NCBI RefSeq assembly: GCF_004283755.1
Contig: NZ_SHMH01000006.1
Coordinates: 186,001-250,000, forward strand
DNA from: Pseudoxanthomonas winnipegensis
GTDB taxonomy: Bacteria; Pseudomonadota; Gammaproteobacteria; Xanthomonadales; Xanthomonadaceae
Direction of reading: 5' to 3'
DNA: 64,000 nucleotides
The notes under the pieces were generated by a model, which ran no database searches, was not told where the DNA came from, and saw only the letters and a program-made list of their open reading frames with translations. The position numbers and the translations under genes were made by a program. This document shows, in pieces, positions 7,047 through 62,006 of the stretch; within the stretch, counting starts at the first letter, position 1; every line of letters starts with the position of its first letter.

Positions 7047-7122
7047 ATCCTCACGCGGCCGCGATGCGCCAGGCCACAGGCTGGTCGCACGCCGATCCGG
7101 CGCGCCACAAGGAATCACCGCC

Positions 7123-7278
7123 GTGCTTCATTACGCCATCGTCTTTCTGGTCATTGCGCTGATCGCCGGCGTGCTGGGTTTCAGCGGCATCGCCGGAACC
7201 GCCTCCAGCATCGCCTGGGTCCTGTTCGTGGTGTTCCTGATCCTGGCCGTGATCTCGTTCTTCCGCAAAAAAGCGTAG
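7123..7278 (+). CDS. Small DUF1328-type membrane protein
   Basis: This 51-residue ORF starts with GTG, has an AAGGA ribosome-binding site nine bases upstream, and ends in a Lys-rich tail (FFRKKA). Two hydrophobic segments (residues 3-20 and 29-47) are separated by [10 protein letters not shown], the typical DUF1328/YtjA arrangement. These are small inner-membrane proteins, often stress-induced, with no settled biochemical function. It follows oleD on the same strand by 76 bases and may be cotranscribed, but there is no reason to link it to olefin synthesis. Confidence 0.85.
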
Positions 7279-7287
7279 GCGACCGCG

Positions 7288-7761
7288 TCAGAGCGGGCAG
7301 GCGAAATAGCCGACCCGCTTGCCGCTGGGCAGATCGGCCTGGCCGACCTGCTCGAAGCCCAGTCGCTGGTGGAAGGCGACCGAGCCGGGATTGGGCGGGT
7401 CCAGATTGATCTCGCACACCAGGCGCGTCTGCCCTTGCAGGCGCGCCTGGTGCTTCAACGCCTCATACAGTGCACCGGCCAGGCCGCGGCCCTGCGCGTG
7501 TTCGGCCACCACGACCCGGTCGATGTAGACGAAGCGCTCGAAGCGCGCCGACAACCAGGCGAAGTTCGGATTGTCGTAGGCCGCGTCCTGTTCCAGCGCG
7601 ATCAGCAAGGCATCGGCCTGGCCGCAGGTCCGGGCGAAGCAGGCCATCCCGATCAGTTGCGCGAACTGTCCCGGCGTCTGCCAGGACAGCGCCGCGGCAT
7701 GGGCGTTGTTGAGCGCCAGCAGGGCCGGCAGATCGGTCGGGGCAACGTCTCGCAGTGGCAT
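7288..7761 (-). CDS. GNAT family N-acetyltransferase
   Basis: This protein of about 157 residues has a GNAT fold: the acetyl-CoA-binding loop is VVVAEHAQGRGLAGALYE near residue 85, followed by VCEINLDPPNPGSVAFHQRLGF, the usual motif B. It is expected to acetylate an amine; the substrate is unknown. The frame stays open for a further 70 codons upstream, but that extension has no family character. The ATG at 7761 is preferred, and a GTG at 7773 is possible. It converges on the DUF1328 gene. Confidence 0.85.
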   Translation of the reverse strand: MPLRDVAPTDLPALLALNNAHAAALSWQTPGQFAQLIGMACFARTCGQADALLIALEQDAAYDNPNFAWLSARFERFVYIDRVVVAEHAQGRGLAGALYEALKHQARLQGQTRLVCEINLDPPNPGSVAFHQRLGFEQVGQADLPSGKRVGYFACPL

Positions 7762-7773
7762 GGCCTCGCTCAC

Positions 7774-8139
7774 TTGCACAGCCCCGTGCTGCGAAGCTCG
7801 CCGTTGGCGCATGCAAAGCGCTGAAATGCCAAGACGCGTGAGGCCCAAATGCCTCCGAAGCACTTTTTCACGTGCGCATTGCCCATCGATCGTTCCACTG
7901 CTGCTCGGGGGGCGCACAGCATGGCCCTGGCGGCTGGCCGCTGCACAGCCTTGGGCATGGGAAGCTGAAGTCACTCAGCTGGGAAGTCCTGCTGAGGGTC
8001 AGGTTTCGTGTGGCTTGCCTGTCTTGAGTTGCGCGTCAGGGCGGGTGCGTCGGCCCTGCCTCGGCCTCGCATCGCTTCCATTTCATCTCGAATGCTCCGG
8101 TAACCCTTGTTCCCGCACGGGCCGTGCGCATCCCCCGGT
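7774..8139. other. Intergenic region without a recognised gene
   Basis: About 370 bases separate the divergent GNAT gene and ubiJ. Both strands hold open frames that are only extensions of the flanking genes. I see no repeat, RNA gene or clear promoter except the TAGAAT box just before ubiJ. Confidence 0.5.
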
Positions 8140-8145
8140 TAGAAT
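8140..8145 (+). promoter_or_regulatory. Putative -10 box (TAGAAT) seven bases before the ubiJ ATG
   Basis: TAGAAT matches the -10 consensus at five of six positions and ends seven bases before the ATG at 8153. A second in-frame ATG at 8144 overlaps the box and would then be too early, which supports the downstream start. Confidence 0.35.
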
Positions 8146-8152
8146 GCCCGCC

Positions 8153-8782
8153 ATGTCGCCCACCCCCTTCGATGCCCTCAAACCGCTGGCCGGCCGCGCG
8201 CTGGAAGCCGCGCTCAACCGTGCCGTCGCGCTCGACCCGGACACGCGCGATGCGCTGGCGCCGCTGGCCGGCCGACGCATCGCCATCGCGCTGGATTCCC
8301 CGCCGCTGGCGCTGGAGATCGCCGTGGAGGCCCAGCGCCTGCACGTGGGGCCGGTCGATCCGGCCAGCGAGCCGGACCTGGCCGTGCGCAGCACGCTGGG
8401 CGGCCTGCTGGGCCAGCTGCCGTTCCTGCGCCGCGACGATGCCGCGCCGGTGGGCAAGCTGCGCGTGTCCGGCGATGCCGACCTGGCGCGGCGCCTGCAG
8501 ACGCTGGCCAAGCGCTTCGACCCGGACTGGGCGCAGCCGCTGGTGAGCGTATTCGGCCCGGTGCTGGGCGTGCAGATCGCCGGCGCGCTGCGCACCACCC
8601 TGCTGCGTCTGCGCGAGACCGGCAGCGAGCTGGCCGGCAGCGCCGTTGAGTTCGTCACCGAGGAATCGCGCGACGTGGTCGCCAAGGCCGAGCTGGAAGC
8701 CTTCCACGATGAGGTCGACGGCCTACGCGACGATGTCGAGCGCCTGGCCGCGCGCCTGTCGCGCCTGGCGGCGCGCGCATGA
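8153..8782 (+). CDS. ubiJ: UbiJ-like ubiquinone biosynthesis accessory protein (SCP2 domain)
   Basis: This 209-residue protein has an SCP2-like lipid-binding domain (residues 5-115, including [17 protein letters not shown]) and a C-terminal coiled coil (about 165-205, alternating Glu/Asp and Arg/Leu), the usual UbiJ architecture. UbiJ organises the soluble Ubi complex that carries out the late ring modifications of ubiquinone. Its last bases overlap the ubiB start as ATGA, which reproduces the enterobacterial ubiJ-ubiB order; ubiE is not adjacent here. Confidence 0.82.
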
Positions 8783-10467
8783 GCATGGCGTGGCCGGGGA
8801 TGAAGAGCGTGCGCGCCGCCGTGCGCGCCAACAAGATCGGCCGCGTGCTGATCCGCTACCGCCTGGACGCGCTGCTGGAGGACACGCCGGCCGGTCCGTG
8901 GCTGAGGCTGGCCCGGCCGTTCGTGCCGCGCGCGCGCGACGACGTGGCCGCGCTCAGCCGCGGCGCGCGCCTGCGCCTGGTGCTGCAGGAGCTGGGGCCG
9001 ATCTTCGTCAAGTTCGGCCAGATTCTCTCCACCCGCCGTGACCTGATCCCGCCGGACGTCGCGCAGGAACTCACCCTGCTGCAGGACCGGGTCAAGCCCT
9101 TCGACGGGCAGCGCGCCCAGGCCATCGTCGAGCAGGCGCTGGGCGTGCCGATCGAGGTGGCCTTCGCCCACTTCGACACCACGCCGCTGGCCTCGGCCTC
9201 GATCGCGCAGGTGCATGCGGCCACGCTGCACGACGGCCGCGAGGTCGTGGTCAAGGTGCTGCGCCCGGACATCGAGGCGCAGATCGCCGGCGACATCGCG
9301 CTGCTCAAGTCCGGCGCGGCGCTGGTGGACTACGCGCATCCGTCGGCCGACAAGATCCGGCCCAAGGAGATCGTCGCCGAGATCGAGGCCACGCTCGCCG
9401 CCGAGCTGGACCTGCAGCGCGAGGGCGCCAACGCCAGCGTGATGCGCCGCTTCTGGCAGGACTCGCCCGACCTTTACGTGCCGGAGATCATCTGGACCCA
9501 TACCGCCGAGCGCGCGCTGACCATGGAACGCGTGGTCGGCATTCCGTCCGACGACATCGTCGCGCTGGACGCGGCCGGCATCGATCGCAAGGCGCTGGCG
9601 GCCAAGGGCGTGCGCGTGTTCTACACGCAGGTGTTCCGCGACAACTTCTTCCACGCCGATGCGCACGCCGGCAACATCTGGGTCGATCCCGATCCGCTGC
9701 GCAAGGACGACCCGCGCTTCATCGCGCTGGACTTCGGCATCGTCGGCCAGCTCTCGCAGCAGGACCAGTACTACCTGGCCGAGAACTTCATGGCCATCTT
9801 CAACAAGGACTACCGGCGCATCGCCGAGCTGCACGTCGAGGCCGGCTGGATGCCGGCCACCGTGCGCATCGACGAGCTGGAGGCGGCCGCGCGCGCGGTG
9901 TGCGAGCCGTACTTCACCCGGCCGCTGTCGGAGATCTCGCTGGCGCAGGTGCTGATCAAGCTGTTCCGCACCGCGCAGAAGTACGAGCTGACCCTGCAGC
10001 CGCAGCTGATCCTGCTGCAGAAGACCCTGCTCAATATCGAAGGCGTCGGCCGCCAGCTCGATCCGCAGCTGGACATCTGGGCGGTGGCCAAGCCGGTGCT
10101 GCAGCGCATCCTGGTCAAGCGCTACAGCCCGCTGCACGCGATCAACGAGCTGCGCAAGCGCATCCCGGAGATCATGACCCACGCCCCGGATATGCCGCGG
10201 CTGGTGCATGCCTGGCTCAAGCAGCAGGTCGATGGCCAGCACGAGCTGTCGATGCGTTCGAAGGATCTGGCCGCGCTCAACCTGACCCTGCAGCGTCTGC
10301 AGCGGCGCGTGGTCACCGCCATCGGCGGCGCGGGCCTGCTGGTGGTGGCCGCGGTGCTGCACGCCTTCGGCGTCGGCGGCCCGAGCCTGTGGGGTGTGCC
10401 GCTGTGGACCTGGTTCACCGGCGCGCTGGGCACGCTGGCGCTGCTGTCGGCCTGGCTGCGGCGCTGA
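8779..10467 (+). CDS. ubiB: UbiB, ABC1/ADCK atypical kinase for ubiquinone biosynthesis
   Basis: This is a 562-residue protein of normal UbiB length. The KxGQ motif (K78-F79-G80-Q81) lies in [16 protein letters not shown], the Ala-rich nucleotide loop is ASIAQVHAA, and the metal-binding DFG motif is in LDFGIVGQL. The last 60 residues form two hydrophobic helices (about 518-536 and 541-558), the C-terminal membrane anchor of the family. UbiB is an atypical kinase/ATPase needed for ubiquinone synthesis. It is coupled to ubiJ by a four-base overlap. Confidence 0.95.
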
Positions 10468-10480
10468 AGGCGCCGCGACA

Positions 10481-11077
10481 ATGCGCGCCGACGCCTCGCT
10501 GCAAGCCCTGAAGGCCGAGCTGTTCGCCCACGGCGAGCGTAACGACGCCGTGCAGCAGGCGCGTGGCGCGCGGATGCTCAACATCACGCCGGACACCGGC
10601 GAGTTCCTCGCGGTGCTGGTGCGCGCCACCCAGGCGCGCCGGGTGCTGGAGATCGGCACCTCCAACGGCTATTCGACGCTGTGGCTGGCCGAAGCGGCCG
10701 CGGCCCTCGGCGGACGGGTCACCACGCTGGAATTCGCGCCCGACAAGTGGGAGCTGGCGCAGGCCACGTTCGCGCGCAGCGGCCTGGCCGGGACGATTAC
10801 TTCGGTGCAGGGCGACGCGGGTGGATGGCTGGCAGCGGCGCAGACGGCGTCGGCCGACCTGGTGTTCCTCGACGCCGACCGCAGCCGTTATCCGACCTGG
10901 TGGCCGGACCTGCGCCGGGTGTTGCGCCCCGGCGGCACGCTGGTGGTGGACAACGCCATCTCGCACGCCGCCGAGCTGGCGGCGTTCGAGACCATGCTGC
11001 GCGCGGACGATGCGTTCACCTGCGCCCTCCTGCCGGTGGGCAAGGGCGAACTGGTCGCCGTGCGCGCGCCCGACTGA
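10481..11077 (+). CDS. O-methyltransferase family protein
   Basis: This 198-residue class I methyltransferase has motif I VLEIGTSNGYSTLWLA near residue 50 and motif IV LVFLDADRSRYPTWW near 125, both typical of the Methyltransf_3/24 (COMT-like) group in which the Asp helps to bind a divalent metal. The substrate is unknown. It begins 13 bases after ubiB and is likely cotranscribed. It could act on a phenolic compound, but there is no direct evidence that it belongs to quinone synthesis. Confidence 0.85.
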   Translation: MRADASLQALKAELFAHGERNDAVQQARGARMLNITPDTGEFLAVLVRATQARRVLEIGTSNGYSTLWLAEAAAALGGRVTTLEFAPDKWELAQATFARSGLAGTITSVQGDAGGWLAAAQTASADLVFLDADRSRYPTWWPDLRRVLRPGGTLVVDNAISHAAELAAFETMLRADDAFTCALLPVGKGELVAVRAPD

Positions 11078-47945: not shown

Positions 47946-48686
47946 CTACGAGGCCTTCTTGGTCGTGGTGGTCTTCTTGGCCGGGGTCTTGCTGGTGGTG
48001 GCCTTCTTGGTGGTGCTGGCCTTGGTCGAGCCGGACTTGCTGCTGCTCGACTTGCTGGAGCTGGACTTCTTCGTGCTCGACTTGGTGCTCGACTTCTTGC
48101 TGGTCGAGGTGGCCTTCTTGCGGGTGCTGCTGGTCGTGGCCGACTTGCGGCGCTCCTCCGGCGGGGACACCGGCGGGGCGGGCAGGGGCTCGGCCGAGAC
48201 GGTCTTGACCTCGGCCTGCAGCGCCTCGAGCTGCGGGATCATCTTCTGCTGGATGCCGACCATCAGGCTCTGCATCACCGCCGGCGTGCGGTCCAGCAGG
48301 CGCTGGCCGGCCTTGCTCTCGTAGAACTTGGTCATCGCCTTGACGTCGTCGTCGTCGAAGGTCTTGCGGTACACGTCCAGATAGACCGGGCGCATCTGCT
48401 CCCAGGCCAGCGACTGGCGCACGATCTCGGAGGTCTTGGCCTGGATCTGCTGGATCTCGGCCTGCTGCTGCGGGGTCAGCGTCTTGCCCTGGGTCAGCTG
48501 GGCGAACTGCTCGCGCTGCATGGCCTCGACCTGGGGCTGGATCGCCGCCAGCATGCTCTGCGCGCGCGAGGCGGCCAGCAGTCGGTCGATCTCCTCGTCG
48601 GTCGGCACGCGGGCCAGCGCGGGCGCGCAGACCGCCGCCAGCAGGGACAGCAACAACAGGACGGACGTGAATCGACGGCGTGGCAT
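47946..48686 (-). CDS. Exported DUF2059 protein with a Lys/Ser/Thr-rich histone-like tail
   Basis: This 246-residue protein has a signal peptide (about residues 1-25, LAAVCAPALA) and a helical DUF2059 domain (about 28-165) with MRPVYLDVYRKTFDDDDVKAM, the family's core. The last 70 residues consist almost only of Lys, Ser, Thr, Ala and Arg, in blocks such as STKKSSSSKSSSSKSGSTK. Such tails are otherwise seen on histone H1-like DNA-binding proteins. Why one follows an export signal is unclear: it could bind DNA, LPS, teichoic or peptidoglycan anions outside the cell. The ATG at 48686 gives a full signal peptide. Confidence 0.82.
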   Translation of the reverse strand: MPRRRFTSVLLLLSLLAAVCAPALARVPTDEEIDRLLAASRAQSMLAAIQPQVEAMQREQFAQLTQGKTLTPQQQAEIQQIQAKTSEIVRQSLAWEQMRPVYLDVYRKTFDDDDVKAMTKFYESKAGQRLLDRTPAVMQSLMVGIQQKMIPQLEALQAEVKTVSAEPLPAPPVSPPEERRKSATTSSTRKKATSTSKKSSTKSSTKKSSSSKSSSSKSGSTKASTTKKATTSKTPAKKTTTTKKAS

Positions 48687-48909
48687 GTGGATCTCGAAAA
48701 GGCGCGCAACGTGACCGGCGATGGTGCCGAGCCGGCGCGGGGTGCGTGTAAAAATTTCACTAAGCAAGGGCGGCGATTCTGCGTCGGTTCGCCTCGCTCG
48801 CAAAGCGCGATGACAGACTCGTCAGGTGCGCGCGCGGGCCGGGGTTCAGGACCGCGATGGGCGCCGGCCCGCATGTCGCGGCATCGCACGGCGTGTCATC
48901 GCCTTGTCC

Positions 48910-50056: not shown

Positions 50057-53000
50057 TCACAAGGCCTTGCCGCCGAACTTGTAGGTGAAGTCCAGATACA
50101 GGCTGCGCCCCAGCGAATCGAACCAGGACACGTCGTAGTACGGATAGGCGGTGTAGCTGGCGTCCTTGGGCGGCATCTTGTCCAGCACGTTGTTGACCGT
50201 CAGCGACAGGCGCGCGCGGTCGCCGAACTGCCGCGACAGCGACAGGTTGTAGCGCCAGGTCGCCTCGACCCACGGGCTCTGGCCCGAGTCCTCGTCGAAG
50301 TCCTGGTCGTAGGAGGCGTAGTTGGGCAGCTTGCCCAGGCGCTGGCCGTACACGGTGGCCGACCAGGCGGCCTTGCTCCAGCCCAGGCTGGCGCTGGTCT
50401 TGGTGCGCGGGATGTCGTAGCCGCTGTTGATGGCGAACTCGTCCACCATCGGATCGCCGGCATAGACCTGGATGTCGTGGCGGTGCACCCAGGTGTAGTC
50501 CAGGCCCAGCGTGAACAGGCCCAGGCCGGTGTCCAGCTTCCAGTGCGCGGCCAGGTCGGCGCCGGAGGTGCGTTCGCGGGCGATGTTGATCGGTTCGACG
50601 GACACGCCGTAGAGCTTGCCGTCCGCCAGCCGGGTGACGCGCGAGAGCGCGTCCACGCAGGTACCCGAGCTGAGCGGGACCGCGCCGGTGAGGCAGTCGC
50701 GCTCGTTGCGCAGGACCACGTCCACGCGCAGGTCCTGCACCTGGTCGCGCATGTCGATGTCGAACCAGTCCAGCGAGATGTCGAAGCTTGGCGTGGGCGA
50801 GAACACCAGGCCGGCGGTCCACGCGGTGCTGGTCTCCGGCTTGAGGTCGCGGTTGCCCACGCGCGTGCGCACGATGCCCTCGTCGCCGTAGCTGCAGTCC
50901 TCGTACGGCGTGCCGGCCTCCTCGGTGTCGCAGCGGTAGTAGTCCACGCCGGAGGTCTCGTCCTCGCCTTCCTGGGCGAACAGGTAGTGCAGGTCCGGCG
51001 CGCGGAAGGCGGTGCCGTAGGAGCCGCGCAGCAGCAGCGCGTCGATCGGGCGCCATTCCACGCCCGCGCTCCAGGTCGGCTTGTCGATGCTGCGGCCGGC
51101 GAAGCGGTACTGGTCGAAGCGCCCGGCCAGGCTCAGGTTGAGGCGCTCCAGCAGCGGCAGGCGCAGTTCGCTGGCCACCGCCCAGCGGTTGCGGCTGCCG
51201 TGGCCGTCGGAGTCCTTCCAGCTGTAGTAGTAGTCCTGCGTGGCCAGCGGATCGGGCTTGAGGTCGTAGCCCTGGCTGCCGAGCTCGGCGGTGGCCGACA
51301 GCCCGGCCGGTCCGCCGGGCAGGCCGAACAGCGCGGTGTTGGTCAGGGTGAAGGCCAGCGTGTCGTTGCGCGACTCGGGGTGGTAGGTGGAGCGCGCGAA
51401 GATGCCGTCGTACTCGGCGCGGGTCAGCGGGGTGTACAGGCGCGCCGGATCGGCGTTGTAGATGGGATAGCCCGAGTCCTCGTCGATGCCCAGCATCGTC
51501 CCCAGGAACAGGTCGTTGGCCTTGGACGCCACGATCTGCGGCCAGCTCACCGCCAGCGAGTACTGCGAATGCGACAGCGAGGCCTCCCAGTCCCAGGCCT
51601 GGCCGAACCGGCCGGCCAGGCCGGTGGTGAGGCTGAAGGTCTTCTGCCGGTTGCGGACCGTGCCGGTGTTCAGCCCGCCCATTTCCTCGGGCGTGAACTG
51701 GCGCTGCCAGTACTCCACCTGCTCGGTGGCCTGGTTGTAGAAGTAGCCGTCCTTCTGCCCGTTGGGCTGCTGGTAGGACCAACTGCGCACGTCCCGGAAC
51801 AGGTCGATGGTGTGGTAGCCGGCCTGCACGTCGGCGAACCAGCGCAGCCCGTCGCCGAAGTCGTAGTTGAAGCTGCCGTAGGCGTTGAGCCCCTCGCGTT
51901 TGCTGATGATGGTGCCGTAGCCGATCGCCTTGTCGCTGCCGCAGTAGTAGCCGGGGCCGTAGTCGTCCAGCGCGGGATCGTAGTCGCCGTAACGCGGGCG
52001 CGAGGCGTAGTAGGTGGAGTGGCCGTTGAAGCGGGCCAGCGCCTCGCAGGTGTCCCGGCCCGGGTCGAGGTAGGTGTCGTAGTAGTCGGTGCGCAGGAAG
52101 CCGCGGCGCGCGATCCGGCCGCTGGCCACGGGGGAATCCTGCGAGGAGTCCTGGATGCCGCGCTGATAGGCCCACAGCGGGTTTTGTCCGGTGTACTCCA
52201 GTCCGTACACCGCGCTGAAGGCGCCGCGCTCGAAGCCGCTGGAGATGCTCAGGTCGAACGAGTCGGCATCGCCGCGGCTGGTGGTGCCGAAGCGGTAGTC
52301 CACGGTGGTGCCGTCGGCGTGCTTCTTCAGGATGAAGTTGACCACGCCGGAGATCGCGTCCGAGCCGTACACCGCCGAGGCGCTGCCGCTGAGGATCTCG
52401 ATGCGCTCGATCATCCCCAGCGGGATGTTGGAGATGTCGGTGAAGTTGCTGCGGCCCTTGAACGGCAGCGGGAAGTCGGCGATGCGGCGGCCGTTGACCA
52501 GCACCAGGGTGTGGTTGGGCCCCAGCCCGCGCAGGTCCACCTGCTGGGCGCCGGGCGAGAAGTCCGCGCCGTTGGCCGACTGCTGGCTCTGGGTCTCGCC
52601 GCCGTTCTGGGTGATCGCGCGCAGCACGTCGGGCACGGTGGTGAAGCCCTTGGCCTTGATGTCCTCGGCGGTGATGGTGGTGATCGGCGCAGGACCCTCG
52701 ACCTGGGCGCGCGGGATGCGCGAGCCGGTGACCTGCAGGCGCTCCAGGTCGGTCGGGGCGTCGCTGTCGGCCTGCGGCGCGGGCGCGGGCTTCGGGCGCG
52801 CGCCGGGCGCAGGCCGCGGGGTCGCGTCCTGGCGGGCGATCAGCAGGGCGCCGGAGGCGTCGCGCCGGGCGACCAGGCCGCTGCCTTCGAGCAGGCGCTC
52901 GGCGGCCTGCGCCGGGCTCAGCTCGCCGCGCACGCCGCGGGTCTGCAGGCCGGCCAGCTGCTCGGGGCGGTAGAGCAGCTGCGCGCCGGTCTGGCGCGAG

Positions 53001-53125
53001 AGCGCCTGCAAGGCGCCGTCCAGGCTGCCGGCCGGGATGTCCAGTTGGCTGGCGGCCTGGGCCTGGGCGGACAGGGCCGCCGCACAGGCAGCGCTCAACA
53101 GCAGCGTTCGCAGCTTGGAATGCAT
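50057..53125 (-). CDS. STN-domain TonB-dependent receptor (signal-transducing) beside the cyanophycinase fusion
   Basis: This 1022-residue receptor has a signal peptide (about residues 1-24). An STN secretin-like domain follows (about 28-100, LDIPAGSLDGALQALSRQTG), which in FecA-type receptors contacts the periplasmic domain of a FecR anti-sigma factor. A Pro/Ala linker leads to the plug with QVTGSRIPR and VLVNGRRIADFP, and a 22-strand barrel ends in LDFTYKFGGKAL. The N-terminal signal domain and the sigma/anti-sigma genes just upstream on the same strand show that it both senses and imports its substrate. Extracellular loops contain several Cys and many Asp/Tyr residues. The neighbouring degradative enzyme suggests that the substrate is a beta-aspartyl peptide. 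GGGGAGAG lies before the ATG. Confidence 0.92.
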   Translation of the reverse strand: MHSKLRTLLLSAACAAALSAQAQAASQLDIPAGSLDGALQALSRQTGAQLLYRPEQLAGLQTRGVRGELSPAQAAERLLEGSGLVARRDASGALLIARQDATPRPAPGARPKPAPAPQADSDAPTDLERLQVTGSRIPRAQVEGPAPITTITAEDIKAKGFTTVPDVLRAITQNGGETQSQQSANGADFSPGAQQVDLRGLGPNHTLVLVNGRRIADFPLPFKGRSNFTDISNIPLGMIERIEILSGSASAVYGSDAISGVVNFILKKHADGTTVDYRFGTTSRGDADSFDLSISSGFERGAFSAVYGLEYTGQNPLWAYQRGIQDSSQDSPVASGRIARRGFLRTDYYDTYLDPGRDTCEALARFNGHSTYYASRPRYGDYDPALDDYGPGYYCGSDKAIGYGTIISKREGLNAYGSFNYDFGDGLRWFADVQAGYHTIDLFRDVRSWSYQQPNGQKDGYFYNQATEQVEYWQRQFTPEEMGGLNTGTVRNRQKTFSLTTGLAGRFGQAWDWEASLSHSQYSLAVSWPQIVASKANDLFLGTMLGIDEDSGYPIYNADPARLYTPLTRAEYDGIFARSTYHPESRNDTLAFTLTNTALFGLPGGPAGLSATAELGSQGYDLKPDPLATQDYYYSWKDSDGHGSRNRWAVASELRLPLLERLNLSLAGRFDQYRFAGRSIDKPTWSAGVEWRPIDALLLRGSYGTAFRAPDLHYLFAQEGEDETSGVDYYRCDTEEAGTPYEDCSYGDEGIVRTRVGNRDLKPETSTAWTAGLVFSPTPSFDISLDWFDIDMRDQVQDLRVDVVLRNERDCLTGAVPLSSGTCVDALSRVTRLADGKLYGVSVEPINIARERTSGADLAAHWKLDTGLGLFTLGLDYTWVHRHDIQVYAGDPMVDEFAINSGYDIPRTKTSASLGWSKAAWSATVYGQRLGKLPNYASYDQDFDEDSGQSPWVEATWRYNLSLSRQFGDRARLSLTVNNVLDKMPPKDASYTAYPYYDVSWFDSLGRSLYLDFTYKFGGKAL

Positions 53126-53226
53126 TCGACTCTCCCCAGAGTGGCGGGCGTGCGGGGGGCGCGCCCATGCAAGGCTCAGGACGAACAAGTCCGCCACTCC
53201 CCCCACGCGATCGACGCGCGGCGTGC

Positions 53227-54297
53227 TCAGCGGCTGTGCAGCAGCACCGTCCCGGGGCGGCGTTCGGCGTGCACGGGGAAGCCGCGTTCGAGCAGGCGCA
53301 CGAAGCCGTCGGCGTTGTCCCACTGGAAGGTGCCCGACACCCGCAACGCGGCGGCGCGGGCGTCGGCCACCACCAGCTTGTGCGCGTTGTAGCGATTGAA
53401 TTCGGCCACCGCCTCGCCCAGGGCTGTGTCGCGGAAGCTCAGCAGGCCGCCGCGCCAGTCCAGCGCGGCCTCGGCCTCGGCCACCGGCACGCTGCGCACC
53501 AGCACCCCGTCCGGACCAGCGATGGCGATGCTGCCGGCCGGCAGCAGCGTGGTCGGGGCGGGGCGGTCGCCGTGGTCGTCCGATTCCAGCCGCACCGTGC
53601 CTTCGGTGACGACCACGCGGGTGGTGGCGCCGTCGCGGCGTACCGAGAAGCGCGTGCCCACCGCCACCGCGCGGCGTTCGCCGGCCTCGACCACGAACGG
53701 CCGGTCGGCGTCCTTGGCCACCTCGAAGTAGGCCTCGCCGCGTTTCAGCGCGATGCGCCGGCGCGCGGCCGACAGCGCGACCTCGATCAGGCTGTCGCTG
53801 CTGAGAGTGGCGCGCGAGCCGTCGGACAGCGCCACCGGCTGCAGCTGGCCCAGCGCGCTGGCATAACTCGCGCTTTCGGTGACCGCGTAGTGCCTCCAGC
53901 CGGCGCCGGCCACGCCCAGGGCGAGCAGCAGCACGGCCGCGCCGGCCAGCAGGGCAGGCCAGCGGCGGTGGGAGCGCGCGGGGCGCGGGGCGAAGACCAC
54001 CTGCGACAGGTCGGCGCCCGGGCCGGGGGCCGCGGCGGGTGCGGTGGGCGGTGCCGCCGTGGACGACCAGGCGCCGCGCGGCGGCACCGTGCCCGGCGCC
54101 ACCCCGGCGCCGAGCGCGGCCAGGCGCCCGCTTTGCTCCCAGGCCGCCTCCAGCCGCAGGAAGGCGATGCGGTGCGCGGTGGCCTGCGCCAGCCAGGCTT
54201 CCAGCGCGTCCTGTGCCTGGGTGTCCCAGTCCCCGCAGTCGCGCCGCGCCAGCCACGCGGCCGCGCGCGACTCAATCCTGGCGCTGTCCGTCGACAT
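53227..54297 (-). CDS. FecR-like anti-sigma factor
   Basis: This 356-residue protein has an N-terminal cytoplasmic sigma-binding domain (DUF4880-like, RIESRAAAWLARRDCGDWD). One transmembrane helix (about 118-138, WPALLAGAAVLLLALGVAGAG) leads to the periplasmic FecR domain with RGEAYFEVAKDADRPFVVEAG and GTRFSVR, and an STN-like end. It holds the sigma factor inactive until the receptor signals. Its start overlaps the sigma gene by 26 bases, and the receptor gene follows 101 bases downstream. Confidence 0.93.
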   Translation of the reverse strand: MSTDSARIESRAAAWLARRDCGDWDTQAQDALEAWLAQATAHRIAFLRLEAAWEQSGRLAALGAGVAPGTVPPRGAWSSTAAPPTAPAAAPGPGADLSQVVFAPRPARSHRRWPALLAGAAVLLLALGVAGAGWRHYAVTESASYASALGQLQPVALSDGSRATLSSDSLIEVALSAARRRIALKRGEAYFEVAKDADRPFVVEAGERRAVAVGTRFSVRRDGATTRVVVTEGTVRLESDDHGDRPAPTTLLPAGSIAIAGPDGVLVRSVPVAEAEAALDWRGGLLSFRDTALGEAVAEFNRYNAHKLVVADARAAALRVSGTFQWDNADGFVRLLERGFPVHAERRPGTVLLHSR

Positions 54298-54865
54298 GCC
54301 GGTGTCCGGTCGGTTGCGATGCGGTGGTGGCGGGGCGCGCCGGGCCGCCGCCGTGATAGGCCCCGGCCAGCAGGCGCATGCCCTTGGCCAGGTGCTTCTC
54401 CACGGTCTTCTCGCTGATGCCCATGCGCATGGCCGCCTCCTTCTGCGACAGTTCCTCCACCCGCCGCAGCCACACAACTTCCCGGCAGCGGTCCGGCAGC
54501 CGGTCGAACGCCTCGGCCAGCCGCCTGAGCACCTGCCGTCCGCCGCACACGCGTTCGGGACAGGCCTCATCCACCAAGACGTGCAAGGCGTCCAGATCAC
54601 CCACTGCCTCGATCGACACCACCCGCCCGCGGCGCAGCCGGTCGGTCATCAGGTGGCGGGCGGTGGCGAACAGGAAGGACTTGGGCGCGGTCGGCAGCGC
54701 CTTGCCGGCGGCCTCGTAGACGCGCACGTAGATCTCCTGGCGCAGGTCGTGGACCTCGTCGGGCCGCGACCAGCTGCGGCGCAGATACGCGCTCAGCGAC
54801 GCCTCGTGGATCAGGATCTCGCGGATGAACCAGTCGTCCAGGGCGGTGCGCATGGCCTGCACCAT
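54272..54865 (-). CDS. ECF sigma factor (FecI-like)
   Basis: This 197-residue sigma-70 family protein has region 2 (IREILIHEASLSAYLRRSW, then EVHDLRQEIYVRVYEAA) and region 4 (DRLPDRCREVVWLRRVEELSQKEAAMRMGISEKTVEKHLAKG) with its helix-turn-helix, but no region 3. The frame is open to 54973; the ATG at 54865 is used and one at 54853 is possible. It is the first gene of the sigma-FecR-receptor operon and is divergent from the cyanophycinase fusion gene, with 88 bases between the starts. It probably directs transcription of the receptor operon and perhaps of the divergent gene. Confidence 0.93.
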   Translation of the reverse strand: MVQAMRTALDDWFIREILIHEASLSAYLRRSWSRPDEVHDLRQEIYVRVYEAAGKALPTAPKSFLFATARHLMTDRLRRGRVVSIEAVGDLDALHVLVDEACPERVCGGRQVLRRLAEAFDRLPDRCREVVWLRRVEELSQKEAAMRMGISEKTVEKHLAKGMRLLAGAYHGGGPARPATTASQPTGHRHVDGQRQD

Positions 54866-54953
54866 AGCCGAGCGGGCGCGCTGTTGCCCACGGGGGGATT
54901 GGCGCTGTTCGTTCGTCCTGCATGGCTGTCGCCCTCCAAAGGAACCCCTGCCC

Positions 54954-56900
54954 ATGCCGTCCGTTTCGCGCAAGTCCTGGCCGCTGCTGGCCGCGCTGCT
55001 GTGGTCGGGTGTGGCGATGGCCGCGCCGGCCTCGCTGGACCACTACCTGCTGGGCGACGCCAGGGCCGCCACGCCGGGCAAGGTCCAGCCGGGCCTGCTG
55101 CTGATGGGCGGCGGCGACCGCAACCACGACGCCCTGCGCTGGTTCTTCGCCAAGGCCGGCAACGGCCACCTGGTGGTGCTGCGCGCCTCGCAGGCCGGCG
55201 AGGTGGGCGACGAGTTCTATCGCGAGGTCGGCGGCCCGGTGTCGGTGGAGACCTTCGTCTTCCACGACCGCCAGGCGGCCTACGACCCGAAGATGCTGCA
55301 GGCCCTGAAGCGGGCCGACGGCATCTTCATCGCCGGCGGCGACCAGTCGCGCTACGTGCGCTTCTGGAAGGACACGCCGGTGGCCGCCGCGCTGGATGCG
55401 CACGTGGCCGCGGGCAAGCCGCTGGGCGGCACCAGCGCCGGCCTGGCCATGCAGGGCGAGTATCTGTACGGCGCCATGGACGGCGGCAGCCAGACCAGCC
55501 CGCGCGCGCTGGCCGATCCGCTGGGGCCGGAGAACACCATAGAGACCGGCTTCCTGCACTTGGCCGCGCTCAAGGGCGTGGTCACCGACACGCACTTCAG
55601 CGAACGCAACCGGCTGGGCCGGCTGATCGGCTTCGTGGCCAAGGCCGAGACCCTGGCCGGGCATCCGCTGATCGGCCTGGGCGTGGACGAGAGCGCGGCG
55701 GTGGCGGTGGAAGGCGACGGCAGCGCCCGCGTGTACGCCACCGCGCCCGGCGCCGGCGCGACGGTGGTGCAGGGCGGCTTCACCGAGCGCCAGGCCGAGG
55801 ACAGCCCGATGCAACTGGCGCAGGTGCGCACGCTGGGCGTGGGCGCCGGCTCGGTGCTGCACCTGCCGGCCGGCACGGTGGACGCGCCGGTCTTCCAGCG
55901 CCGCTACGCGGTGCGCGACGGCGTGCTGGTCCTGCTGGATGCGCCGATGCTGGTGATCCACGGCGGGGCGGGCGTGGAGCGCAAGGGGATGACGCCGGCC
56001 GACGAGGCCGAGGCGCGCGCGGCGATGACCGCCGCGCTGCAGGCCGGCCATGCGCTGCTGACCCAGGGCAAGCCGGCGCCGGAAGCGGTGGCCGCGGCGA
56101 TCACCGTGCTGGAAGACTCGCCGCAGTTCAACGCCGGCAAGGGCGCGGTGTTCACCCACGACGGCAGGAACGAGTTGGACGCGGCGATCATGGATGGGGC
56201 CAGCGGCAAGGCCGGCGCGATCGCCGGTGTGCACCGGGTCAAGAATCCGATCCTGCTCGCCAAGGCGGTCATGGACCACTCCCAGCACGTGATGATGGTC
56301 GGCGATGGCGCCGAGGTCTTCGCCCGCGAGCAGGGCATCACGCTGGTCGATCCGTCGTACTTCCGCACCGAAAAGCGCTGGCAGCAGCTGCAGCAGGCGC
56401 TGAAGGAAGATCGCCTGGGCCTGGCCCACGAGGACCTGGCCACGGCCAGGCACTTCGGCACCGTCGGCGCGCTGGCGCTGGACGGCGCCGGGCGGCTGGC
56501 GGCCGGCACCTCTACCGGCGGCATGACCGACAAGCGCTACGGCCGGGTCGGCGATTCGCCGATCATCGGCGCCGGCACCTATGCCAACGCGCAGTGCGCC
56601 GTGTCCGGCACCGGCTGGGGCGAGTTCTACATCCGCGCGGTGGCCGCCTATGACATCTGCGCGCGGATGAAGTACGCCGGCCAGTCGCTGGTGCGCGCGG
56701 CGCAGACGGTGATCAACCGCGAGATCCCGGCCGCCGGCGGCGACGGCGGTGCGATCGGGCTGGCCGCCGATGGCGTGGTCGCCTTCCCGTTCAATACCGA
56801 GGGCATGTACCGCGGCTGGATCGGCGCCGACGGCGTGCCGCACGTGGCCATCTACAAGGACGACGCACTGCCGCTGCCGGCCGGCCAGGCGGCGCCTTAG
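54954..56900 (+). CDS. Exported fusion of cyanophycinase (S51) and isoaspartyl peptidase/type III asparaginase
   Basis: This 648-residue protein has a signal peptide (about 1-23). Residues 40-325 are a cyanophycinase-like S51 peptidase: the nucleophile elbow GGTSAG (Ser161), FIAGGDQSR (Gln131) and TDTHFSERNRLGRL. Residues 330-648 are a complete Ntn-hydrolase of the isoaspartyl peptidase/type III asparaginase family: start LVIHGGAGV, self-cleavage site at Thr503 in ARHFGTVGALALD, and GRVGDSPIIGAGTYA. Cyanophycinases cut cyanophycin (a polyaspartate with arginine on each beta-carboxyl) to beta-Asp-Arg; isoaspartyl peptidases split beta-Asp-Arg to Asp and Arg. Both steps are thus encoded in one exported polypeptide. 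AAAGGAA is nine bases before the ATG. Activity and substrate are inferred. Confidence 0.85.
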   Translation: MPSVSRKSWPLLAALLWSGVAMAAPASLDHYLLGDARAATPGKVQPGLLLMGGGDRNHDALRWFFAKAGNGHLVVLRASQAGEVGDEFYREVGGPVSVETFVFHDRQAAYDPKMLQALKRADGIFIAGGDQSRYVRFWKDTPVAAALDAHVAAGKPLGGTSAGLAMQGEYLYGAMDGGSQTSPRALADPLGPENTIETGFLHLAALKGVVTDTHFSERNRLGRLIGFVAKAETLAGHPLIGLGVDESAAVAVEGDGSARVYATAPGAGATVVQGGFTERQAEDSPMQLAQVRTLGVGAGSVLHLPAGTVDAPVFQRRYAVRDGVLVLLDAPMLVIHGGAGVERKGMTPADEAEARAAMTAALQAGHALLTQGKPAPEAVAAAITVLEDSPQFNAGKGAVFTHDGRNELDAAIMDGASGKAGAIAGVHRVKNPILLAKAVMDHSQHVMMVGDGAEVFAREQGITLVDPSYFRTEKRWQQLQQALKEDRLGLAHEDLATARHFGTVGALALDGAGRLAAGTSTGGMTDKRYGRVGDSPIIGAGTYANAQCAVSGTGWGEFYIRAVAAYDICARMKYAGQSLVRAAQTVINREIPAAGGDGGAIGLAADGVVAFPFNTEGMYRGWIGADGVPHVAIYKDDALPLPAGQAAP

Positions 56901-56912
56901 GCGTGGCTGGCC

Positions 56913-56948
56913 CGGCGCCCGGACCGGGCAGGCCGGGCCCGGGCGCCG
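56913..56948. repeat. GC-rich stem-loop after the fusion gene
   Basis: CGGCGCCCGG and CCGGGCGCCG are exact complements separated by 16 bases. It lies 12 bases past the stop codon, without a T-run, and may mark the end of the message. Confidence 0.6.
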
Positions 56949-57055
56949 ATGCGTCCTGACGCTGACCTTTGGCCCAATCGGCCAGCGTCCGGCACGTGCC
57001 ACCGAACGGCAGATCGGGTAGCGTGCGCGGCTCTTCCGCAATGGCTGGATCCCGC

Positions 57056-59215
57056 ATGACCCGCACCCTCGCTCTTGCCACCGCCATCAGCCTGGCGCTG
57101 GCCGCCTGCCACGCACAAACGGAGGCCGATGCCGTGAAACCCGCCGCGTCCACCCCGGCCGCCGAAGCCGCGCCGCAGCGCGCCAACCCGCTGCTGAGCG
57201 CCAGCACGCTGCCCTTCCAGGCCCCGCCCTTCGACAAGATCCAGGACAGCGACTACCTGCCGGCCTTCGAGGAAGGCATGCAGCAGCACCTGGCCGAGAT
57301 CCGCAAGATCGCTGACAACCCGGAGCCCGCCACTTTCGCCAACACGCTGGAGGCGATGGAGCGCAGCGGCGAGACCCTGACCCGTGTCTCGCGCATCTTC
57401 TTCGGCCTGGTCCAGGCCGATACCAACGATGCGCGCCAGAAGATCCAGGAAGAGATCGCGCCCAAGCTCGCCGCGCACCAGGACGAGATCAACCTGGATC
57501 CGAAGCTGTTCGCGCGCATCAAGAGCCTCTACGACCAGCGCGACACCTTGAACCTGGACCCGGAGCAGAAGCGCCTGGTCGAGTACCAGTACCAGGAGTT
57601 CGTGCGCGCCGGTGCGCAGCTGTCCGACGCCGACAAGGCCACCCTGCGCAAGCTCAACATCGAAGAGACCACCCTGGCCACGCAGTTCCACACCAAGCTG
57701 GTCGCGGCCGCCGCCGCCGGCGCGGTGGTGGTCGACGACAAGGCCAAGCTGGACGGCCTGTCCGACGGCGACATCGCCTCGGCCGCGCAGGACGCGGCCG
57801 CGCGCAAGCTCGACGGCAAGTACCTGCTGGCCCTGCAGAACACCACCCAGCAGCCGGTGCTGGCCTCGCTGAAGGATCGCGACCTGCGCCTGCAGGTGAT
57901 GAGCGCCTCGCAGACGCGCGCCGAGAAGGGCGACGCCAACGACACCCGCCAGACCGTGCAGCGCCTGGCCCAGCTGCGCGCGCAGAAGGCCAAGCTGCTC
58001 GGCTTCGACAGCTATGCGGCCTACAGCCTCAGCGACCAGATGGCCAAGACGCCGGATGCCGCGCTGAAGCTGCTCACCGACACCGTGCCCGCCGCCACCG
58101 CCAAGGCGCGCAGCGAGGCGGTCGAGATGCAGAAGGTGATCGACGCGCAGCAGGGCGGCTTCAAGCTCACCGCCGCCGACTGGGACTTCTACGCCGAGCA
58201 GGTGCGCAAGGCCAAGTACGACCTGGACGAGGCGCAGATCAAGCCGTACTTCGAGCTGGACAACGTGCTCAAGAACGGCGTGTTTTACGCCGCCACCCAG
58301 CTCTACGGCATCACCTTCAAGGAGCGCACCGACATCCCGACCTACCACGACGGGATGAAGGTCTACGAGGTGTTCGACCAGGACGGCAAGTCGCTGGCGC
58401 TGTTCTACACCGACTACTTCAAGCGCGACAGCAAGTCCGGCGGCGCCTGGATGGACGAGTTCGTCGGCCAGAACGGGCTGAGCGGCACCAAGCCGGTGGT
58501 CTACAACGTCTGCAACTTCACCAAGCCCGCACCAGGCCAGCCGGCGCTGCTGAGCTTCGACGACGTCACCACGATGTTCCATGAGTTCGGCCATGCGCTG
58601 CACGGCATGTTCTCCAACGTGAAGTATCCGACCCTGGCCGGCACCGCCACCTCGCGCGACTTCGTCGAGTTCCCCTCGCAGTTCAACGAGCACTGGGCCT
58701 CCGATCCGAAGGTGTTCGCGCATTACGCCAAGCACTACCAGACCGGCGAGGCGATGCCGGCCGATCTGGTGGAGAAAATCAAGAAGTCGCGCACCTTCAA
58801 CCAGGGCTATGCCACCACCGAGTACCTGTCGGCGGCGCTGCTGGACCTGTCCTGGCACACCCTGCCGGCCGACGCGCCGCTGCAGGACGTGGACAAGTTC
58901 GAGGCCGATTCGCTGAAGAAGTACAAGGTCGATCTGGCCGAAGTGCCGCCGCGCTACCGCACCACCTACTTCGACCACATCTGGGGCGGCGGCTATTCGG
59001 CCGGCTACTACGCTTACTTCTGGGCCGAGGTGCTGGACGACGATGCGTTCGAGTGGTTCAAGGAGCATGGCGGGCTGAGCCTCAAGAACGGCGACATCTT
59101 CCGCGACAAGATCCTCTCGCGCGGCAACACGGTCGACCTGGCCACGCTGTACCGCGACTTCCGCGGCAAGGATCCCAGCGTCGCGCCGCTGCTGGAGAAT
59201 CGCGGGCTGAAGTGA
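57056..59215 (+). CDS. M3 family metallopeptidase lipoprotein (Dcp-like)
   Basis: This 719-residue protein has a lipoprotein signal (LALAAC, Cys18 from the ATG at 57056; an ATG at 57041 is also in frame). The catalytic motif HEFGHALHG lies at residues 509-517 with the third zinc ligand Glu in FVEFPSQFNEHW, and the M3-specific YRTTYFDHIWGGGYSAGYYAY is near the end. It resembles peptidyl-dipeptidase Dcp, which takes dipeptides off the C-terminus of oligopeptides, but here it is anchored outside the cytoplasm. It could complete peptide breakdown beside the fusion enzyme, or be independent; a stem-loop separates the two genes. Confidence 0.92.
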   Translation: MTRTLALATAISLALAACHAQTEADAVKPAASTPAAEAAPQRANPLLSASTLPFQAPPFDKIQDSDYLPAFEEGMQQHLAEIRKIADNPEPATFANTLEAMERSGETLTRVSRIFFGLVQADTNDARQKIQEEIAPKLAAHQDEINLDPKLFARIKSLYDQRDTLNLDPEQKRLVEYQYQEFVRAGAQLSDADKATLRKLNIEETTLATQFHTKLVAAAAAGAVVVDDKAKLDGLSDGDIASAAQDAAARKLDGKYLLALQNTTQQPVLASLKDRDLRLQVMSASQTRAEKGDANDTRQTVQRLAQLRAQKAKLLGFDSYAAYSLSDQMAKTPDAALKLLTDTVPAATAKARSEAVEMQKVIDAQQGGFKLTAADWDFYAEQVRKAKYDLDEAQIKPYFELDNVLKNGVFYAATQLYGITFKERTDIPTYHDGMKVYEVFDQDGKSLALFYTDYFKRDSKSGGAWMDEFVGQNGLSGTKPVVYNVCNFTKPAPGQPALLSFDDVTTMFHEFGHALHGMFSNVKYPTLAGTATSRDFVEFPSQFNEHWASDPKVFAHYAKHYQTGEAMPADLVEKIKKSRTFNQGYATTEYLSAALLDLSWHTLPADAPLQDVDKFEADSLKKYKVDLAEVPPRYRTTYFDHIWGGGYSAGYYAYFWAEVLDDDAFEWFKEHGGLSLKNGDIFRDKILSRGNTVDLATLYRDFRGKDPSVAPLLENRGLK

Positions 59216-60469: not shown

Positions 60470-60568
60470 TGGATGGACCTTGGAAGTATTCGAAGAGGTG
60501 TCGGAACCCGGAAACCGGGCCCCGTAAAAAGCGAGCGTGGCCTGTGAAGCGTCAGTGGCGTTTGCTTT

Positions 60569-60666
60569 CCCGATTCCCGATTCCCGATTCCCGAATCCCG
60601 ATTCCCGAATCCCGAATCCCGAATCCCGAATCCCGAATCCCGAATCCCGAATCCCGAATCCCGAAT
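60569..60666. repeat. Heptanucleotide tandem array (CCCGAWT)14
   Basis: Fourteen consecutive copies of CCCGA(A/T)T fill 98 bases exactly. It lies between phaB and citM. The A/T position alternates in the first six units and is always A later, which suggests local duplication of the CCCGAAT form. Similar arrays are common in intergenic DNA of Xanthomonas and relatives. Confidence 0.95.
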
Positions 60667-60674
60667 CCCACCCC

Positions 60675-62006
60675 TTAAGCCACCAACGGAAACAACCCAA
60701 ACACCAACCCCGCCGCCATCAGCACCAGCGAGACCAGCACCGCCCACTTGAGGGTGAACTTCTGGTGGTCGGCGAACTCCACCTTGGCCAGGCCCACCAG
60801 CAGATAGGTCGAAGGCACCAGCGGGCTGAGCAGATGCACCGGCTGGCCGGCCAGCGAGGCGCGCGCCATCTCCACCGGCGTGATGCCGTATTCGCCCGCG
60901 GCCTGCGACAGGATCGGCAGCACGCCGAAGTAGAAGGCGTCGTTGGACATGAAGAAGGTGAAGGGCATGCTGGCCAGTGCGGTGATCACCGCCAGGTACG
61001 GGCCGCAGGCATCGGGGATCACCGCCAGGAAGCTGCGCGACATCGCCTCGACCATGCCGGTGTTGGATAGGATGCCGGTGAAGATGCCGGCGGCGAAGAT
61101 CAGCGACACCACCGACAGCACGTTGCCGGCGTGGTTGACCAGGCGGCGTCGCTGCTCGGCCAGGTCCGGGTAGTTGATCACCAGCGCGATGGCGAAGCCG
61201 ATCATGAACAGCACCGGCATCGGCAGCACGCCCACCACCAGCGCCGCCATCAGCGCGCAGGTCAGGGCGAAGTTGACCCACAGCAGCTTGGGCCGCTTGA
61301 TGTGCTCGACATCCTCGACCGTGGGCAGGGCGTCGCTGCCGTCCTCGGCCACCGAGGCGTCCATCCAGTCCTGGCCCGGCGGCAGCTGGATCACGCCCAG
61401 GCGGCGGCGCTCCTGCAGGCCCAGCCACCACGCCAGCGCCAGGATGCTGAGCAGCGCGATGACCATCGCCGGCACCAGCGGCACGAACACATCGGCCGGG
61501 TCCACGTGCAGCGCGGTGGCCGCGCGCGCGGTCGGCCCGCCCCACGGGGTGAGGTTCATCACGCCGCTGGCGAGCATGGTCACGCAGGTCATGCGCAGCG
61601 CGTTCATGCCCAGCCGGTGGTACAGCGGCAGCATGGCCGAGGCGGTGATCATGTAGGTGGTCGAGCCGTCGCCGTCCAGCGAGATCAGCATCGCCAGGAT
61701 CGCCGTGCCCATCACGATCTTCAGCGGATCGCCCTTTACCAGGCGCAGGATGCGTCCGACCAACGGGTCGAACAGCCCCGCATCGATCATCACGCCGAAA
61801 TAGAGGATGGCGAACATCAGCATCACGCCGGTCGGCGCGATCTTCTTGATGCCCTCCAGCATCATCTCGTTGATGCCGCCGCCGAAGCCGCCCAGCAGCG
61901 CGAACACGATCGGCACCGTGATCAGCGCCACCAACGGCGAGAGCCGCTTGGACATGATCAGGTACATGAAGGCGATGACCATCCCGAAGCCGAGCAGCGT
62001 CAGCAT
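60675..62006 (-). CDS. CitMHS family citrate:cation transporter
   Basis: This 443-residue protein has about twelve hydrophobic helices. The conserved DGDGSTTYMITASAMLPLYH and NLTPWGGPTARAATALH fit the CitMHS family of the ion-transporter superfamily, which imports citrate complexed with Mg or Ca. GAGGAAA lies before the ATG. The porin gene upstream ends 10 bases before its start, so the two are likely one operon, and an OmpR-type regulator is divergent from them. Confidence 0.9.
   Translation of the reverse strand: MLTLLGFGMVIAFMYLIMSKRLSPLVALITVPIVFALLGGFGGGINEMMLEGIKKIAPTGVMLMFAILYFGVMIDAGLFDPLVGRILRLVKGDPLKIVMGTAILAMLISLDGDGSTTYMITASAMLPLYHRLGMNALRMTCVTMLASGVMNLTPWGGPTARAATALHVDPADVFVPLVPAMVIALLSILALAWWLGLQERRRLGVIQLPPGQDWMDASVAEDGSDALPTVEDVEHIKRPKLLWVNFALTCALMAALVVGVLPMPVLFMIGFAIALVINYPDLAEQRRRLVNHAGNVLSVVSLIFAAGIFTGILSNTGMVEAMSRSFLAVIPDACGPYLAVITALASMPFTFFMSNDAFYFGVLPILSQAAGEYGITPVEMARASLAGQPVHLLSPLVPSTYLLVGLAKVEFADHQKFTLKWAVLVSLVLMAAGLVFGLFPLVA

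Follow-up and report, generated by a model that had tools for sequence, protein, structure and literature searches.

A stretch of 64,000 nucleotides from Pseudoxanthomonas winnipegensis (contig NZ_SHMH01000006.1, positions 186,001 to 250,000; hereafter the window) carries genes for a FecI-type extracytoplasmic function (ECF) sigma factor, a FecR-type anti-sigma regulator and a TonB-dependent receptor on one strand. Divergent from these is a gene for an exported protein in which an extracellular-type cyanophycinase (CphE) is fused to an isoaspartyl peptidase (IaaA), and a peptidase of the M3 family (Dcp) is encoded farther along the same strand (Table 1). All five genes named in a preliminary description of this DNA were recovered where it had placed them, by open reading frame (ORF) list, Pfam and NCBIfam; gene starts in the window were assigned from ORF translations. 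The spacing of 88 bases that it had given for the divergent genes is also exact, corresponding to the gap between the sigma factor gene and the fusion gene (54866-54953), and the fecI and fecR ORFs overlap by 26 nucleotides. Cyanophycin is a bacterial nitrogen-storage polymer, and the sequence evidence described here indicates that the genes, with the exception of that for Dcp, probably constitute a cyanophycin utilisation locus under the control of cell-surface signalling.

Table 1. Features of the putative cyanophycin utilisation locus, and related genes elsewhere in the host genome
Feature	Position	Strand	Evidence
TonB-dependent receptor, N-terminal STN signalling domain, 1022 aa	50057..53125	-	Pfam barrel 8e-42, Plug 7e-23, STN 1.7e-6
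Candidate ECF-type promoter motif, receptor upstream, GGGGGAGT-N10-TTCGTC	53180..53203	-	Exact pattern match
FecR-type anti-sigma regulator, 356 aa	53227..54297	-	Pfam FecR 1.8e-19, DUF4880 4.8e-6
FecI-type ECF sigma factor, 197 aa	54272..54865	-	Pfam Sigma70_r4_2 7e-15, Sigma70_r2 5e-8
Candidate ECF-type promoter motif, depolymerase upstream, GGGGGATT-N11-TTCGTCCT	54893..54919	+	Position weight matrix 32.1 bits; exact pattern 54893-54917
Exported CphE-IaaA fusion, 648 aa	54954..56900	+	Pfam Peptidase_S51 1e-9, Asparaginase_2 3e-108
Peptidyl-dipeptidase Dcp (M3), lipobox-like N-terminus	57041..59215	+	NF007624 984.6 against cut-off 944
CphB-CphA1-CphA-like gene set, host genome, other contig	L111 (G000:C14:326000-345900), 5455-10990	-	Profile scores

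According to Pfam, an ECF sigma factor, a FecR-type anti-sigma regulator and an STN receptor are encoded together, with the STN match slightly below its cut-off (28.1 bits against 28.4). This is the three-protein architecture of known FecI/FecR/STN systems, with which the locus also has in common a candidate ECF-type promoter motif ahead of the receptor gene. The sigma factor scores 69.8 bits with TIGR02937, for which the cut-off is 42.9, and the receptor, which matched 26 NCBIfam models, falls under the cut-off of all 25 that were listed.

The cyanophycinase half of the fusion spans approximately residues 25 to 325 and the isoaspartyl peptidase half approximately residues 331 to 640, and a Sec-type signal peptide was recognized by eye at the N-terminus of the window protein and its homologues. 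Residues of the CphE half were assigned from their motifs, and an alignment with the solved cyanophycinases 3EN0, 7UQW and 7UQV served as a guide. They include a triad of S161, H214 and E246, with the GXSXG motif reading GTSAG; pocket residues Q131, D212, R218, R220 and R223; and T213 where CphB has Gln173. Passages of one report (PMC3235067) describe a corresponding set for CphEal, namely a Sec signal, GXSXG, a Ser/His/Glu triad, a Gln/Asp/Arg/Arg/Arg pocket and Thr replacing Gln173 of CphB, and give Gln101, Asp172, Arg178, Arg180 and Arg183 as critical for cyanophycin cleavage. The Ser-to-His spacing of 53 residues is equal in the two proteins, whereas the window protein has a His-to-Glu spacing of 32 rather than 27 and a Gln-to-Ser spacing of 30 rather than 35. 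Also, CphEal is a stand-alone enzyme, whereas the CphE of the window is fused to IaaA. Among 30 aligned fusions, all of these CphE residues are invariant except T213, which is nearly so. The C-terminal half, a strong Asparaginase_2 match, aligns with IaaA-type enzymes, and its Thr503 falls where the beta-subunit chains of PDB structures begin, such that the isoaspartyl-peptidase nucleophile is kept. The CphE and unfused IaaA ORFs inspected in other loci have a signal-peptide-like start, again judged by eye. Several unfused CphE proteins (L131-L136 and L145) appear by eye to start with a lipobox-like sequence and may be membrane-anchored.

Enzymes of this kind might also recycle other isoaspartyl or beta-linked peptides, derived from aged protein, the cell wall or secondary metabolites, in which case the S51 half would have drifted from cyanophycin. 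The divergence of the S51 half is in keeping with this possibility, as are passages reporting that two tested isoaspartyl dipeptidases of cyanophycin clusters (IaaA and IadA) accept several beta-aspartyl dipeptides (PMC10206079), and that Asp-X dipeptides or isoaspartyl nucleotides are the substrates of other S51 enzymes (PMC9239234). However, the cyanophycin-critical residues are kept along with the triad Glu, whereas the microcin C (McC)-cleaving clade is described, in published passages, as having Asp for its third triad residue. Moreover, the receptor tracks CphE and not IaaA, and we therefore consider this alternative unlikely.

This association with CphE is apparent in the family. We searched 395 family genomes for the fusion, the CphE domain and the cyanophycin synthetase CphA1, and found the full-length fusion in 100 (fragments, such as that of G358, were excluded) and a CphE-type domain at E <= 1e-40 in 161. 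The loci counted below were picked by hand from match lists, and many are from close relatives. In other genomes, homology with the window proteins and not gene calling was used to place the gene starts, and FecI and FecR (together, FecIR) were scored as absent where tblastn with the window proteins gave nothing at 1e-6 in a stretch of up to 20 kb. FecI, FecR and the divergent receptor adjoin the fusion in 58 of 60 fusion loci examined, including one locus whose receptor is cut at a contig end (L039) and one with partial matches (L085); L086 has the receptor without FecIR. Of the 61 genomes of the family that have unfused CphE, 27 carry neighbouring but separate CphE and IaaA genes in the same position, as does a genome from a sister family (L121). 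Over 99 loci, a divergent receptor of the window family is present in 88 of 89 with CphE and in none of 10 hand-picked loci with IaaA only, where neither receptor nor FecIR was found (two of these, L125 and L130, are short contigs). The cyanophycinase and isoaspartyl peptidase thus appear to be clustered with a predicted transporter, the divergent TonB receptor, in 88 of 89 CphE loci.

The conserved neighbourhood is smaller than the five genes originally proposed. FecI, FecR, receptor and fusion remain together in the 58 loci, but Dcp, which had been counted as part of the system, is near the fusion in 8 of the 60 and was not found near it in the other 52. Dcp also adjoins IaaA in 4 of the 10 IaaA-only loci, which lack the rest of the module, and on both grounds we excluded it from the module. 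ArfB and acyltransferase genes lie near IaaA in 7 of the 10 loci without CphE, and the presence of these genes and Dcp near IaaA alone indicates that the module-less chromosomal site still holds such neighbours. Loci L113-L115, L125 and L128-L130 have the order ArfB-acyltransferase-IaaA, with Dcp in some, and look like a state before insertion or after loss.

The STN domain and FecIR are present or absent together. The receptor core is always on the strand opposite CphE in the 89 CphE loci, of which 70 have an STN receptor with FecI and FecR (one receptor being cut), 18 have an STN-less receptor without FecIR, and one has a remnant; no mixed STN/FecIR state was found among them. A tree of 86 receptor cores shows nine changes of the STN state, at least seven of them on well-supported branches, and in 7 of 7 independent pairs FecIR changes along with STN (p = 0.016). 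This tree was derived by a quick search under a simple model and has some long branches; 13 presumed near-copies were not included, and a length filter removed L071 and L085. The pattern suggests that STN, FecI/FecR and the candidate sigma promoters described below form a sensing cassette that a retained receptor acquires or loses as a whole. The receptor cores (L033-L150) include two well-supported clades, of 37 and 42 of the 86 rows. Both clades occur in the genus of the window and in another genus (g29), and exchange of receptors is possible. The STN stretch of the L072 receptor is in a different frame from the remainder, which could be a natural break or an assembly error.

Candidate ECF-type promoter motifs are found upstream of both the receptor gene and the depolymerase gene. 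The two window sites fit the pattern GGGGGAKT-N9-12-TTCGTC, whose chance expectation in the window is 0.00 and which has three sites in the 4.49-Mb genome, two of them at this locus. The sole additional site falls inside an ORF, and we therefore rejected a wider regulon of the sigma factor in this genome. A position weight matrix (PWM) was trained on 49 receptor-side sites, consisting of GGGGGATTT, a spacer and CGTTCGTCCT, with no CphE-side region in the training set; it was built after the same regions had been viewed with a regular expression, such that its form and spacing were not chosen blind. Among the 70 FecIR loci, a motif of at least 6 bits lies ahead of the receptor gene in 68, where 49 of the sites had served for training, and on the untrained CphE side in 54. 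Antisense controls yielded such motifs in 0 of 70 regions each and shuffles in 1 of 700, and the 18 loci without FecIR have none on either side. The FecIR loci are related to one another, and the counts are therefore not independent events. A stricter receptor-side pattern, too narrow to include either of the two sites in the window, matched 26 times in the genus, in 25 of 38 genomes. Twenty-one of these are beside CphE on the module contig with the same 25-nucleotide length, and matches in G016 and G1135 have the same form, while those in G000:C4, G191 and G264:C27 differ in length and appear to be chance matches. The motif common to both upstream regions is sequence evidence that connects the depolymerase gene with the sigma factor, and suggests that this divergent gene is a predicted member of the sigma factor's regulon.

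FecIR signalling is best known from iron carriers (PMC9249621), as is the FecI/FecR/STN architecture. Among NCBIfam models, the receptor is matched best by one for a heme receptor, at 115 bits where the cut-off is 317. The FecI-FecR-receptor operon might therefore serve ordinary iron-carrier uptake and be situated beside a peptidase gene by chance. We regard this as very improbable, since the receptor stays beside CphE in the 18 loci without FecIR, and CphE has the same sigma-type motif. Also, no Fur box was found: the best match across 7.2 kb of the window is 10/19, no divergent region among 70 has a match above 10/19, and 70 receptor upstream regions give 12/19 in one and 11/19 in four, with shuffles reaching 12/19. 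Xanthomonas Fur sites score 13-17/19, according to passages of PMC1790865. Because the Fur-box matches are no better than those of shuffles, the iron-carrier reading is not supported. Unlike known FecI/FecR/STN signalling systems, the locus has a predicted polymer hydrolase as its linked effector.

In addition to the iron-carrier precedent, several observations weigh against a cyanophycin utilisation locus. The S51 half scores 97.4 bits with TIGR02069, below the cut-off of 126.6, whereas the other S51 gene of the genome (CphB) exceeds it with 262.4 bits, and the CphE assignment thus rests on the residues described above. The IaaA half, at 321 bits, is below the cut-off of 567 for NF007589 (beta-aspartyl-peptidase), and since a tested IaaA from a cyanophycin cluster is promiscuous (passages of PMC10206079), the C-terminal half is little informative on substrate. 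L071 has no FecIR and only a receptor remnant, and in L161, from a Lysobacteraceae metagenome-assembled genome (MAG), the fusion has neither receptor nor FecIR within 4.2 kb upstream. The motif is below 6 bits on the CphE side in 16 of the 70 FecIR loci and on the receptor side in 2, and unsupervised sharing of 12-mers between the two upstream regions is barely distinguishable from its controls. The stricter pattern is without a match in 13 of the 38 genus genomes, including seven that bear CphE (G174, G218, G324, G347, G359, G376 and G388). Finally, cyanophycin, which is poorly soluble at neutral pH, may not be able to pass a TonB receptor.

The host is also a predicted cyanophycin producer. 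A CphB-CphA1-CphA-like gene set resides on another contig (Table 1), where CphA1 scores 997 bits against a cut-off of 850 and CphB 262 against 126.6, and because both are encoded, the organism probably makes the polymer. The label of a scavenging locus therefore needs qualifying, since genes for a cyanophycin synthetase and for a second, separate cyanophycinase are present in this genome. With a match threshold of E <= 1e-150, CphA1 is present in 41 of 100 fusion genomes compared with 61 of 295 others (Fisher p = 1e-4, kinship not corrected), in 54 of 161 genomes with any CphE domain compared with 48 of 234 without, and in 11 of 57 with clear unfused CphE (four weak-scoring genomes were left out). 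The locus is thus common among predicted producers as well as where CphA1 is lacking. It could serve to reclaim cyanophycin from lysed cells of the host itself or of its kin, instead of scavenging from cyanobacteria, by the mechanism proposed below and with only the source of the polymer being different. The CphA1 gene beside a separate CphB, and the higher frequency of CphA1 among fusion genomes, are consistent with such recovery. However, at that threshold no CphA1 is recognized in 59 of the 100 fusion genomes, nor in 46 of the 57 with clear unfused CphE, and we view this source as possible but rather doubtful.

Two other features of the window are separate from the locus. An exported-looking protein with a long Lys/Ser/Thr-rich tail is encoded at 47946-48803 on the minus strand, and a short tandem-like repeat of the GGGATTC type was noticed in ORF translations at approximately 60560-60675, where it separates an acetoacetyl-CoA reductase-like gene from one for a CitMHS transporter.

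Related loci occur beyond the family. Among the best 80 loci of a scan of named genomes, 29 have CphE, and these include 12 with an STN receptor and FecIR, 9 with an STN-less receptor and no FecIR, and 5 from Bacteroidota; L157 and L170 end too near the CphE gene for the receptor to be judged, and the remaining one is L161. A receptor of the window family is present in 21 of the 29, compared with 1 of the 51 IaaA-only loci (L184, distant, 23%). Loci of the FecIR type are found in Rhodanobacter MAGs, and the fusion with an STN-less receptor in Sphingomonas flavalba, Sphingomonas sp. SCN 67-18, a Sphingopyxis MAG and Sphingosinicella microcystinivorans. In Stenotrophomonas maltophilia D457, unfused CphE and IaaA genes adjoin an STN-less receptor. 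The motif reaches 6 bits on the CphE side in 12 of 13 FecIR loci of this set and on the receptor side in 9 of 12, and is on neither side in 9 FecIR-less loci; six of the loci scored are from genomes already counted in the family set. Sphingosinicella microcystinivorans (L169) is named for the breakdown of microcystin, and other cyanobacterial peptides might be substrates there.

Bacteroidota hold analogous loci with SusCD, CphE and IaaA, of which three were scanned with Pfam and a fourth (L201) was viewed as ORFs only; in two of the three, sigma factor and FecR genes are part of the arrangement. Pedobacter sp. Leaf41 (L187) has the order sigma-FecR-SusC(STN)-SusD-CphE-IaaA; in a Chitinophagaceae MAG (L189), the same first four genes are followed by a CphE-IaaA fusion. 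Sphingobacterium litopenaei (L230) has a SusC without an STN match, then SusD-CphE-IaaA, with a threonine synthase-like gene in place of sigma/FecR. The Pedobacter locus has a second S51 peptidase after IaaA (L187:11010-11852).

Parts of this arrangement were known previously. Passages of Sharon and Schmeing 2023 (PMC10206079, also citing Ben Hania et al.) take clusters of cyanophycinase and isoaspartyl dipeptidase as scavenging systems, the genes being clustered in 45 of 52 genomes without cphA1. The window has the same pairing, and transporters are mentioned in those passages, whereas ECF sigma/FecR/STN control and the fusion in one polypeptide are features of the window. A TonB receptor is situated beside cyanophycinase in Citromicrobium, and cyanophycin was proposed as its substrate (passages of Tang et al. 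2012, PMC3400609). Judging by those passages, this receptor-cyanophycinase pairing is common to Citromicrobium and the window, with sigma/anti-sigma control described for the window only, and the Sphingomonadales loci L166-L169, with the fusion and an STN-less receptor, resemble the Citromicrobium locus. Polysaccharide utilisation loci of Bacteroidota and the carbohydrate utilisation (CUT) loci of Xanthomonas, the latter as presented in passages of PMC1790865, likewise combine a receptor and a degradative enzyme in one locus, but the putative substrate of the window locus is a polypeptide and not a carbohydrate, and the window has no SusD. No description of a surface-signalling version of a cyanophycin locus was found in the titles, abstract starts and passages of the open-access literature, where passages of a Dyadobacter paper (PMC11573002) mention the component terms separately. 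The earlier remark that no description of the arrangement was known thus applies to the signalling version, whereas the dipeptidase clusters and the receptor beside a cyanophycinase had been published. As far as the open-access literature reaches, the locus is new in its regulation, and utilisation clusters and the receptor-cyanophycinase pairing were already known.

The proposal of a cyanophycin-degrading locus with receptor-driven regulation is supported by the conserved neighbourhood, the catalytic residues of CphE and IaaA, and the common ECF motif. These features, along with the co-occurrence of STN and FecIR, are read directly from DNA; from them we infer the substrate, the inducer, import through the receptor and a periplasmic site of action. 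In the proposed mechanism, soluble cyanophycin or an oligomer would bind the outer-membrane receptor, whose STN domain would signal via FecR to release the ECF sigma factor. The sigma factor would then act at the matching promoters to transcribe the gene for the receptor and, divergently, cphE-iaaA. In the exported enzyme, the CphE half would cut the poly-Asp backbone and the IaaA half the resulting beta-Asp-Arg, making free Asp and Arg available for uptake. We consider the chances evenly balanced that this account holds in full, with an STN receptor that both senses and imports cyanophycin or its oligomers, a FecI that turns on the receptor and a periplasmic two-step depolymerase, a cassette that moves as a unit, and counterparts in Bacteroidota.

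That STN and FecI/FecR are gained and lost in concert indicates that receptor signalling behaves as an exchangeable cassette. If the locus functions as proposed, cyanophycin would join carbohydrates and iron carriers as a ligand that is sensed, and probably imported, by a dedicated outer-membrane receptor in Gram-negative bacteria, and this would bear on how heterotrophs gain access to nitrogen stored by cyanobacteria and other producers.

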